Shown here: positions 10,282 through 29,722 of the stretch, in pieces
Layout of the letters: every line of letters starts with the position of its first letter
Numbering within the stretch: position 1 is the stretch's first letter
Assembly (NCBI GenBank): GCA_015059065.1
Contig: SVBE01000008.1
Span: forward strand, 1-64,000
From: Erysipelotrichaceae bacterium
GTDB taxonomy: Bacteria > Bacillota_I > Bacilli_A > RFN20 > CAG-826
Reading direction: 5' to 3'
Length of the DNA stretch: 64,000 bases
Translations under genes and position numbers: made by a program
Notes under the pieces: generated by a model
The model's database searches: none
What the model saw: only the letters and a program-made list of their open reading frames with translations
Told to the model about the DNA's origin: nothing

Positions 10282-10304
10282 GTGTGTGTCGATGAAAGTC
10301 GATG

Positions 10305-10369
10305 ATTCGTATATTTCCCTAATTGGAGGGTTGTCTCTACCCTAGACCGTATAATCTAGGACTACGAAT
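10305..10369 (+). ncRNA. Purine riboswitch, guanine type
   Basis: P1 ATTCGTA/TACGAAT, J2/3 TTGTCTCTACC, P3 CCTAGA-CCGTATA-(A)TCTAGG, J3/1 GGACTACG with C at the discriminator position. Confidence 0.9.
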
Positions 10370-10423
10370 TAAATTAGTCGATAAACCGTTTGTGTTATTC
10401 TCTAATTTATATTGTAGAAAGAG

Positions 10424-24233: not shown

Positions 24234-24249
24234 TTATTGTAAAAATAAT

Positions 24250-24445
24250 ATAGTCCGTTGATTAAGAGGAAGTAATCCGTAAATTAATCATCTAGAGAGT
24301 CGATGTAGGTGGAAGTTCGACTGATTAATGGATGAAGGGTCGCTTAGGAGGATACATTAATGAAGGGCTAGATATTTGTATATCTAGAACTAAGGTGGTA
24401 CCGCGCAAATTATGCGTCCTTAGAAATAGGACGCTTTTATTTTTA
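24250..24445 (+). ncRNA. T-box leader (valine) upstream of valS
   Basis: Stem I elements AGAGAGTCGATGTAGGTGGAAGTTCGACT, specifier GTC in TGAAGGGTCGC (24339-24341), T-box AAGGTGGTACCGCG, terminator gcgtcct..aggacgc tttt. Confidence 0.93.
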
Positions 24446-27104: not shown

Positions 27105-27284
27105 ATGAAATACGAAAAACTGAGCATTGAAGAATGCAAAAACATCTATGTCGGAGAGGCGATTACTCTCTCTGCTGTACTCGCGGTTTTAGCGGCAGCT
27201 GTCGTCGCGGTACTAATCTATAAAGTGTTCCTTTCTTCCAAGGGGAATGCTTCAATTGGTGATTGGAAATTTTCTTGGGCTTGA
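27105..27284 (+). CDS. Small single-TM/secreted peptide, 59 aa, unknown
   Basis: MKYEKLSIEECKNIYVGEAITLSAVLAVLAAAVVAVLIYKVFLSSKGNASIGDWKFSWA with GGAGGG SD 6 nt upstream. Confidence 0.6.
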   Translation: MKYEKLSIEECKNIYVGEAITLSAVLAVLAAAVVAVLIYKVFLSSKGNASIGDWKFSWA

Positions 27285-27287
27285 TTT

Positions 27288-28037
27288 ATGAAGATAGAAG
27301 ATATTCCATCCTTCGATCGCCCTCGCGAAAAAGCGCTTCGTGAGGGCCTCGATGCCCTATCTGATGAAGAATTATTGGCGATCATCATCAATAACGGTTA
27401 TCGCGGTGGCAGTGCCTTAGATATCGCTGATGAGCTATTAACGAAAAGCAAAGGTTTATATAACCTCAATAATCTCAATCAGAAAGATTTAAAGAAGATA
27501 AAAGGAATCAAGAAAGTAAAAGCGATTCAACTGATGTCGCTTTTCACAATCATGAAGCGCATCAAGAATCAGAGAATAAACTTGGAAGATCGCATCGTTG
27601 ATGCGGAATATATCAATGAAAAATATGGAGATTATCTCTCTAGCCTTTCTCAAGAAGCTGTTTTATTGCTTGTTTTAAATAAAAGCAAAAAGCTAATTTT
27701 TGAAGTTACGCTTTATCGAGGTAGTGGTTCTTTAGTCCCCATCTCCATCAATGAAGTGATTAAGAATGTGATTTTACACGATGGTTATTATTTCTATTTG
27801 GTTCATAATCACCCCAATGGAAATAGGGAACCATCTCCACAGGATATATTGCTCACAATTAGGTTAAATTCAAGAATTAAAAATATGGGTATATATCTCA
27901 TCGATCACATCATTATTCATCATTATGGATATACGTCGATTAATAAGTATCTAAAAGAAGAATATGATTATCGGAATATACTCCAATTATCTGCCCAGGA
28001 AGAAATGGGATTACAGTATGCGCTCAGCGAAGATTAG
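27288..28037 (+). CDS. radC: RadC/MPN-JAB domain protein
   Basis: EDIPSFDRPREKALREGLDALSDEELLAIII; LVHNHPNGNREPSPQD. Confidence 0.93.
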   Translation: MKIEDIPSFDRPREKALREGLDALSDEELLAIIINNGYRGGSALDIADELLTKSKGLYNLNNLNQKDLKKIKGIKKVKAIQLMSLFTIMKRIKNQRINLEDRIVDAEYINEKYGDYLSSLSQEAVLLLVLNKSKKLIFEVTLYRGSGSLVPISINEVIKNVILHDGYYFYLVHNHPNGNREPSPQDILLTIRLNSRIKNMGIYLIDHIIIHHYGYTSINKYLKEEYDYRNILQLSAQEEMGLQYALSED

Positions 28038-28389
28038 TAATAAGTACATGTACAAAACAAAGAAAAATGATAACGGAAGTCATTATTATTTAGTTTTTTA
28101 TGACAGAAAAAACAAACGATATAACGCTGTTCAATTAACACATCTTTATATAAAAGATAGAAATAGATTTGTACAGGTAAATAAAGGTTTGATTGTTGTC
28201 GAAAAATTCAAAGAATTTGAAGTTCCTAGTGGAGTCAAAAAACAAATATATGAAACTGATGTAAATGGAAATAATATCGATATTAAATCAAACTCGATTA
28301 GGTTTATATCAAAACGTTATTTGTCTTCAAAACAATCAAACAGGATAAAGAAACAAATAATAAAAAAGCCTTACACATCAGAGCGGTAA
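28018..28389 (+). CDS. Small basic hypothetical protein (start 28018 or 28048)
   Basis: ORF overlapping radC end; ...YYLVFYDRKNKRYNAVQLTHLYIKDRNRFVQVNKGLIVVEKFKEFEVPSGV...; family not recognised. Confidence 0.5.
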   Translation: MRSAKISNKYMYKTKKNDNGSHYYLVFYDRKNKRYNAVQLTHLYIKDRNRFVQVNKGLIVVEKFKEFEVPSGVKKQIYETDVNGNNIDIKSNSIRFISKRYLSSKQSNRIKKQIIKKPYTSER

Positions 28390-28410
28390 GGTAAGAAATG
28401 TTTTTCTTGC
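28366..28410. repeat. Tandem structured element, copy 1
   Basis: CCTTAC ACATCAGAGCG GTAAGG (28369-28391) then taagaaatgtttttctt; minus strand gives hairpin + T-run. Confidence 0.75.
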
Positions 28411-28499
28411 TAATATCTTTATATCATATTTTTCGTATCGATGACAACAAATAGTAAAAAAACAGTCTGATAGAATAATAAAATTTATATCAAAATAAA

Positions 28500-28545
28500 A
28501 AATCCGTACACATCAGAGCGGTACGGTAAGAAAATGATTTTTCTT
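28500..28545. repeat. Tandem structured element, copy 2
   Basis: CCGTAC ACATCAGAGCG GTACGG (28504-28526) then taagaaaatgatttttctt; compensatory T->G / A->C versus copy 1. Confidence 0.75.
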
Positions 28546-28659
28546 CGTGATTTATTTATAACATGATTTTTACAAAAATAATAGTAAAAAGATAATGAGC
28601 GGATTGAAAAATAGGAAAAAATAGTTGATAACCTATTATAACTTATGTTATAGTACTGA

Positions 28660-29690: not shown

Positions 29691-29702
29691 TTAACAAAAA
29701 TT

Positions 29703-29722
29703 GACCTTCGGGTCTTTTTTTG
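29703..29722 (+). terminator. Intrinsic terminator after rpmA
   Basis: gacc ttcg ggtc ttttttt. Confidence 0.8.

Follow-up and report, generated by a model that had tools for sequence, protein, structure and literature searches.

The hairpins at the 3' end of ORF2, an unannotated gene behind radC, probably belong to a small RNA (sRNA) gene on the minus strand that is convergent with ORF2, was once tandem duplicated, and would silence the ORF2 mRNA through complementary loops. We put the probability of this reading, which is drawn from sequence comparison, at a little under 60%. Established computationally are the ORF family, the conserved position and the structure of the element, its antisense terminator and promoters, and the constancy of its loops within genomes. 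Coordinates refer to the window, that is, the whole 64-kb stretch of DNA analyzed here.

ORF2 and the duplicated hairpin element

ORF2 (28018 to 28389, plus strand) encodes a basic orphan protein of 123 amino acids, shares 20 nt with the 3' end of radC, and has a putative sRNA as its partner. No match to the protein was found in Pfam, NCBIfam, or PADLOC, a search of PHROGs returned nothing significant, and profiles of PDB structures returned nothing useful; a single-sequence AlphaFold model (pLDDT, 37) gave no usable fold. The differences between ORF2 and its homologs lie mainly in third codon positions.

Hairpin 1, CCTTAC-ACATCAGAGCG-GTAAGG with an 11-nt loop (28369 to 28391), overlaps the stop codon of ORF2 and corresponds to the stem-loop of an antisense terminator, and hairpin 2, AAGAAATGTTTTTCTT (28393 to 28408), corresponds to the 5' hairpin of the predicted sRNA. 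The second copy consists of CCGTAC-ACATCAGAGCG-GTACGG (28504 to 28526), the loop of which is identical to that of the first copy, and AAGAAAATGATTTTTCTT (28528 to 28545). The two copies of hairpin 1 are spaced 135 bp from start to start, and each is followed by AAGAAA(A)TG(A)TTTTTCTT. An earlier note on this DNA had described the two hairpins, the invariant 11-nt loop, the compensatory stem change, and the A/T second hairpins exactly as they occur in the sequence. The two copies are not independent; alignment places them in one diverged tandem duplication of about 105 to 113 nt that the note had missed (local alignment score, 55; shuffle maximum, 33). Unit 1 (28328 to 28433) comprises the 3' end of ORF2 and the element, and unit 2 (28459 to 28571) comprises a remnant of the ORF2 3' end (KQSDRI versus KQSNRI) and the element. 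Because both copies stem from a single tandem duplication, the compensatory change within the window is a single event.

We counted 40 perfect 6-bp stems with 11-nt loops in the 64-kb window, and a lone hairpin of this kind is unremarkable; each copy of the hairpin folds only 1.5 to 2.4 standard deviations better than its shuffles. Given that such hairpins are common and that the window itself holds only one duplication and one double change, a chance hairpin at the end of an ORF might have been tandem duplicated and have acquired its stem change by template switching within a quasi-palindrome, with no selection. We consider this highly improbable, because it is contradicted by the comparative data: the element recurs independently at the equivalent location in no fewer than 11 genomes, and does so with covarying stems, constant loops, a U-tract, and promoters.

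The exact 17-mer core does not occur beyond the window locus among the 281 genomes of the order. Exact matches to the loop elsewhere in the genome (C5:7466 and C15:6791) are stemless and were attributed to chance, and identity with an integron attC site was rejected upon inspection by eye, in which GTTRRRY/RYYYAAC boxes were absent. Rfam contained no gathering-level match to the element, and the best overlapping matches were at chance level (E ≥ 2).

Antisense promoters and U-tracts

The minus-strand sRNA suggested in the earlier note, with a hairpin, a second hairpin, a T-run, and a promoter of its own, gains support from promoter enrichment, U-tracts in 18 of 18 elements, covarying stems, and a covariance model match. 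What the note had overlooked is that hairpin 1 overlaps the ORF2 stop codon and that the ORF and the predicted sRNA recur as a module in phage-like elements. Copy 1 of the predicted sRNA (28358 to 28412, minus strand; boundaries estimated from the sequence and from covariance model CM R2) comprises hairpin 2', hairpin 1', and a U-tract (28362 to 28367, minus strand) that reads A6 on the plus strand. Its candidate promoter, TTGTCA-N18-TATAAA, is present where the note had placed it (28446 to 28417, minus strand) and carries a TG before the -10 hexamer; taken alone, it is not significant (P = 0.095). Copy 2 (28493 to 28550, minus strand), which has no ORF of its own, is predicted from its sequence and U-tract. 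No well-scoring promoter was found for it, and a possible extended -10, TGT-TATAAA (28555 to 28560, minus strand), is weak, has a poor -35, and is not the best-scoring site.

Over 12 genomes, σ70-type promoters were enriched on the antisense side of the element (Fisher P = 8.5e-9) versus the sense side (P = 0.73), as judged against dinucleotide shuffles with one element per genome and with elements picked by hairpin, not by promoter; the scores derive from an approximate Escherichia coli matrix. Antisense promoters at a P value of ≤0.01 were found in 6 of the 12 elements versus 2.8% of 106 control gene ends. Examples are TTGACA-N17-TTTAAT in two genomes (G141 and G133), TTGACA-N17-TACAAT (G073), TTGACT-N17-TACATT (G177), and TAGACA-N17-TAAAAT (G118). 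The antisense U-tract averages 9.3 T in 12 positions, versus 3.7 on the sense side. Read on the antisense strand, the sequence just past the stop codon of nearly all homologs consists of a σ70-type promoter, a variable hairpin 2, then hairpin 1, and finally a U-tract; the most likely identity of the element is thus a gene for an sRNA that is convergent with the ORF.

A hairpin with an antisense U-tract is also a textbook intrinsic terminator, and hairpin 1 might merely stop antisense transcription, or transcription of both strands, after the ORF, with no dedicated sRNA and no function of the loop. In G177 and G182, hairpin 2 also resembles a plus-strand terminator by eye (AAAGACT...AGTCTTTTTG). 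We nevertheless regard a plain terminator as unlikely: a dedicated promoter for the antisense strand is enriched a short way upstream of the hairpin, the loops are better conserved than the flanks between copies of the same genome, a feature that termination alone would not require, and ordinary terminators in the window look different (for example, that at 29700 to 29720).

Distribution in filamentous-phage-like elements

Homologs of ORF2, with 23 to 63% identity, were found in about 11 of the 281 genomes of the order (~4%), and a class-wide protein search of a sample of the class yielded no members beyond the order. Searches of phage and plasmid collections returned nothing useful, and one scan of a genome-contig collection found no relative; the comparative evidence rests on 12 genomes. 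Most of the homologs reside in integrated rolling-circle, filamentous-phage-like elements that encode a rolling-circle initiator (PF02486; Rep_trans E values, 2.4e-30 and 1.9e-33), a tyrosine integrase, a large secreted protein, or a membrane ATPase with a P-loop, with the ATPase and pIII-like labels assigned from the P-loop and architecture alone and family models giving no match. Solitary chromosomal copies lie behind radC in the window and behind ruvB in G133, where the ORF looks frameshifted near its start. The module probably originates from filamentous-phage-like rolling-circle elements, as far as gene content suggests. The same elements also harbor a further family of paralogous small basic proteins, marked by an ITSLE motif (L119:3062-3421 and L122:4712-5059); an ordinary bidirectional terminator comes after the L119 gene.

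Immediately past its stop codon, nearly every homolog has a run of A residues and a paired stem that encloses a loop, in most cases with a second hairpin as well; the sole exception among the genes examined is that of G167, where the element is absent. Loops measure 11 to 12 nt in the closest relatives, 5 to 27 nt in the others, and 36 nt in a second ORF family.

Because most homologs are found in filamentous-phage-like elements of the rolling-circle type and copies without an ORF persist, the hairpins could conceivably be a chromosomal remnant of a single-stranded-DNA phage element (a packaging signal, a replication origin, or a recombinase site) and function in the form of folded DNA. Such an origin is very unlikely: the hairpins follow the 3' end of the ORF rather than occupying a fixed phage location, being in the middle of an operon in G141 and G044 and terminal in G182, and folded DNA needs neither a U-tract nor a σ70-type promoter.

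Stem covariation and loop constancy

In a hand alignment of six distinct 6-bp hairpins from four genomes, the two window copies among them, each of the six stem pairs showed double-sided changes, and pairing was intact in 100% of cells. The earlier note had argued from covariation to selection on structure. Stems do covary across relatives, while the window contributes only one event, the weight of which derives from those relatives: the element turns up in at least 11 further genomes, where its stems are paired but differ in sequence. CM R2, which was built without the window genome, had a single match in the 64-kb window (28414 to 28358, minus strand), which was marginal (24.5 bits; E = 0.054), and in a scan of the whole genome the window site fell below the threshold. 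Within the order, the same model recovered a new ORF-less copy directly behind radC in G141 (E = 2.2e-7); a match in G174 (E = 0.044) lies within a coding gene and was discarded. No convincing relatives were recovered with model R1, for which the two copies of the window were the sole input.

Extra copies of the element without an ORF occur in four genomes, namely, the window genome (G000), G016, G141, and G189. In three genomes the stems of ORF-linked and ORF-less copies have drifted apart by compensatory pairs while the loops have remained constant or nearly so: CCTTAC/GTAAGG became CCGTAC/GTACGG with 11 of 11 loop positions identical, ACCGG/CCGGT became GTCGG/CCGAC with 35 of 36 identical, and CCTAGG/CCTAGG became CTTAGG/CCTAAG, again with 11 of 11. 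Pooled within-genome identity was 57/58 for loops versus 139/172 for downstream flanks (P = 5e-4). From genome to genome, the loops differ. The rule of loop constancy is not absolute, since in G189 two copies have a common loop and the third differs from it at 4 of 11 positions. Calculated loop duplex energies were -12 to -18 kcal/mol for cognate and -1 to -5 kcal/mol for noncognate pairs, with -17.7 kcal/mol for the loop duplex of the window. A loop that is constant within a genome and different between genomes, on a stem that drifts, would be a direct readout of mutual loop recognition.

Proposed mechanism and comparison with known systems

We propose that a σ70-type promoter drives an RNA of about 50 to 60 nt composed of hairpin 2', hairpin 1', and the U-tract, in which hairpin 1' would serve as the intrinsic terminator. 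The ORF2 mRNA, if it reads through, comes from the opposite side of the same DNA and would therefore carry hairpin 1 with an exactly complementary loop. The two 11-nt loops could then kiss, after which pairing may spread through the 3' regions, which are complementary; silencing or degradation of the ORF2 mRNA would follow, as in type I toxin-antitoxin loci of convergent layout; transcription of the element, loop kissing, and silencing are all predicted from the DNA. Since only the loop must match, extra copies of the sRNA could work in trans even as compensatory changes let their stems diverge, so kissing of complementary loops would account for loops that are held, stems that are free to drift, and ORF-less copies that are still useful. 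Pairing of the sRNA with the start or ribosome-binding region of ORF2 was not beyond that of shuffles, which makes degradation or silencing from the 3' end likelier than a direct block of the start codon.

The geometry of the locus would work like that of convergent type I toxin-antitoxin systems. In par(pAD1), convergent promoters share a bidirectional terminator, and contact begins by kissing of the terminator loops (PMC7472228). Like the fst mRNA and RNA II of that system (Fst/Ldr type I), the pair described here is predicted to include a convergent antisense RNA with its own promoter that overlaps the 3' end of the gene, with a shared hairpin whose loops are complementary, termination on the plus strand being only putative; both also occur on mobile elements and chromosomes. 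The antisense RNA is about 40 nt in par(pAD1) and is predicted to be about 50 to 60 nt here. Unlike Fst, a membrane peptide of 33 amino acids, ORF2 is a basic protein of 123 amino acids with no detectable relation to it; it does not have the character of a small hydrophobic Fst/Ldr membrane toxin and gave no family match. Also unlike par(pAD1), the window locus was found to have no direct repeats that pair with the start region, and it belongs to a group in which ORF-less sRNA copies occur. Similar geometry is known from the prophage-borne type I pairs yonT/SR6 and txpA/RatA of Bacillus subtilis, in which a convergent antisense RNA overlaps the 3' end of the gene, by about 65 nt in the case of SR6 and yonT (PMC5848175). 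In contrast to these pairs, the sRNA here is duplicated with drifting stems, and both the protein (yonT encodes a toxin of 58 amino acids) and the RNA are unrelated in sequence.

ToxIN, CptIN, and TenpIN, of type III, likewise combine a protein with a structured RNA, repeats, and a phage connection. The RNA of type III systems lies 5' of the toxin gene and runs in the same direction. A hairpin RNA that binds and inhibits the protein directly, without base pairing to the mRNA, would fit a small basic protein with an RNA partner, and differences in the loops between genomes could track the specificity of the protein. We think such a pair quite unlikely; type III is disfavored by the orientation of the element, which is 3' and antisense (convergent), and by the absence of matches to ToxN, CptN, and TenpN profiles (Pfam or PADLOC, up to E = 10). 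Instead of tandem repeats 5' of a ToxN-type toxin gene, there are at most two to three copies with separate promoters.

The locus differs from the toxin-antitoxin pairs of inoviruses described by Roux et al. in 2019, all of which were predicted to be type II except for one of type IV, with no RNA partner (PMC6813254). Like those pairs, it appears to be an accessory module of filamentous-phage-like elements, but with a predicted RNA partner. Tentatively, and with more doubt than confidence, we suggest that it represents an undescribed RNA-controlled module of the filamentous-phage-like elements of this order, in which a conserved orphan protein has a convergent sRNA as its partner and the loop of that sRNA serves as a genome-specific key, and that solitary chromosomal sRNA copies with a matching loop, such as those behind radC, shut off the phage gene and function as genes for anti-addiction or immunity. 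A role of the ORF2 protein itself as a toxin or immunity factor is speculative. If the sRNA reading is correct, filamentous-phage-like elements bear an RNA-partnered module that is invisible to protein-based annotation, and the specificity of kissing loops, together with any immunity conferred by solitary antisense RNAs of the chromosome, would become testable in ordinary reporter and phage assays.

Neighboring and related features

Downstream of the element lie the rplU promoter and an L21 ribosomal-protein leader (RF00559; 28671 to 28741) that precedes rplU, scores 31.8 bits (E = 0.00024), under the Rfam gathering score, and is near-identical in G001, the only other genome of the genus. In G001, a small ORF likewise lies between radC and rplU; it belongs to a different family and is followed by an A-run hairpin. 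Directly 5' of radC, a membrane-type peptide of 59 amino acids (27105 to 27284) with the conserved C terminus GxWKFSW or GDWKFSW is encoded; it occupies the same location in G001 and G141, and no family match was above the cutoff. Elsewhere in the window, a T-box leader precedes the valyl-tRNA synthetase gene (24249 to 24424), and a purine riboswitch is found at 10287 to 10384, both above their gathering scores.

In G016 (L042:3586-4040), a gene of a different small basic ORF family, whose product is 47% identical to that of the G001 ORF behind radC (105 amino acids), is associated with two tandem antisense elements, the 36-nt loops of which are identical at 35 of 36 positions and the stems of which differ by two compensatory pairs. 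A tRNA-flanked island in G189 contains, beside three copies of the element, an ORF-less sRNA-like unit (L125:6652-6770, plus strand of L125) with TTGACA-N17-TTTAAT, two hairpins, and a U-tract.
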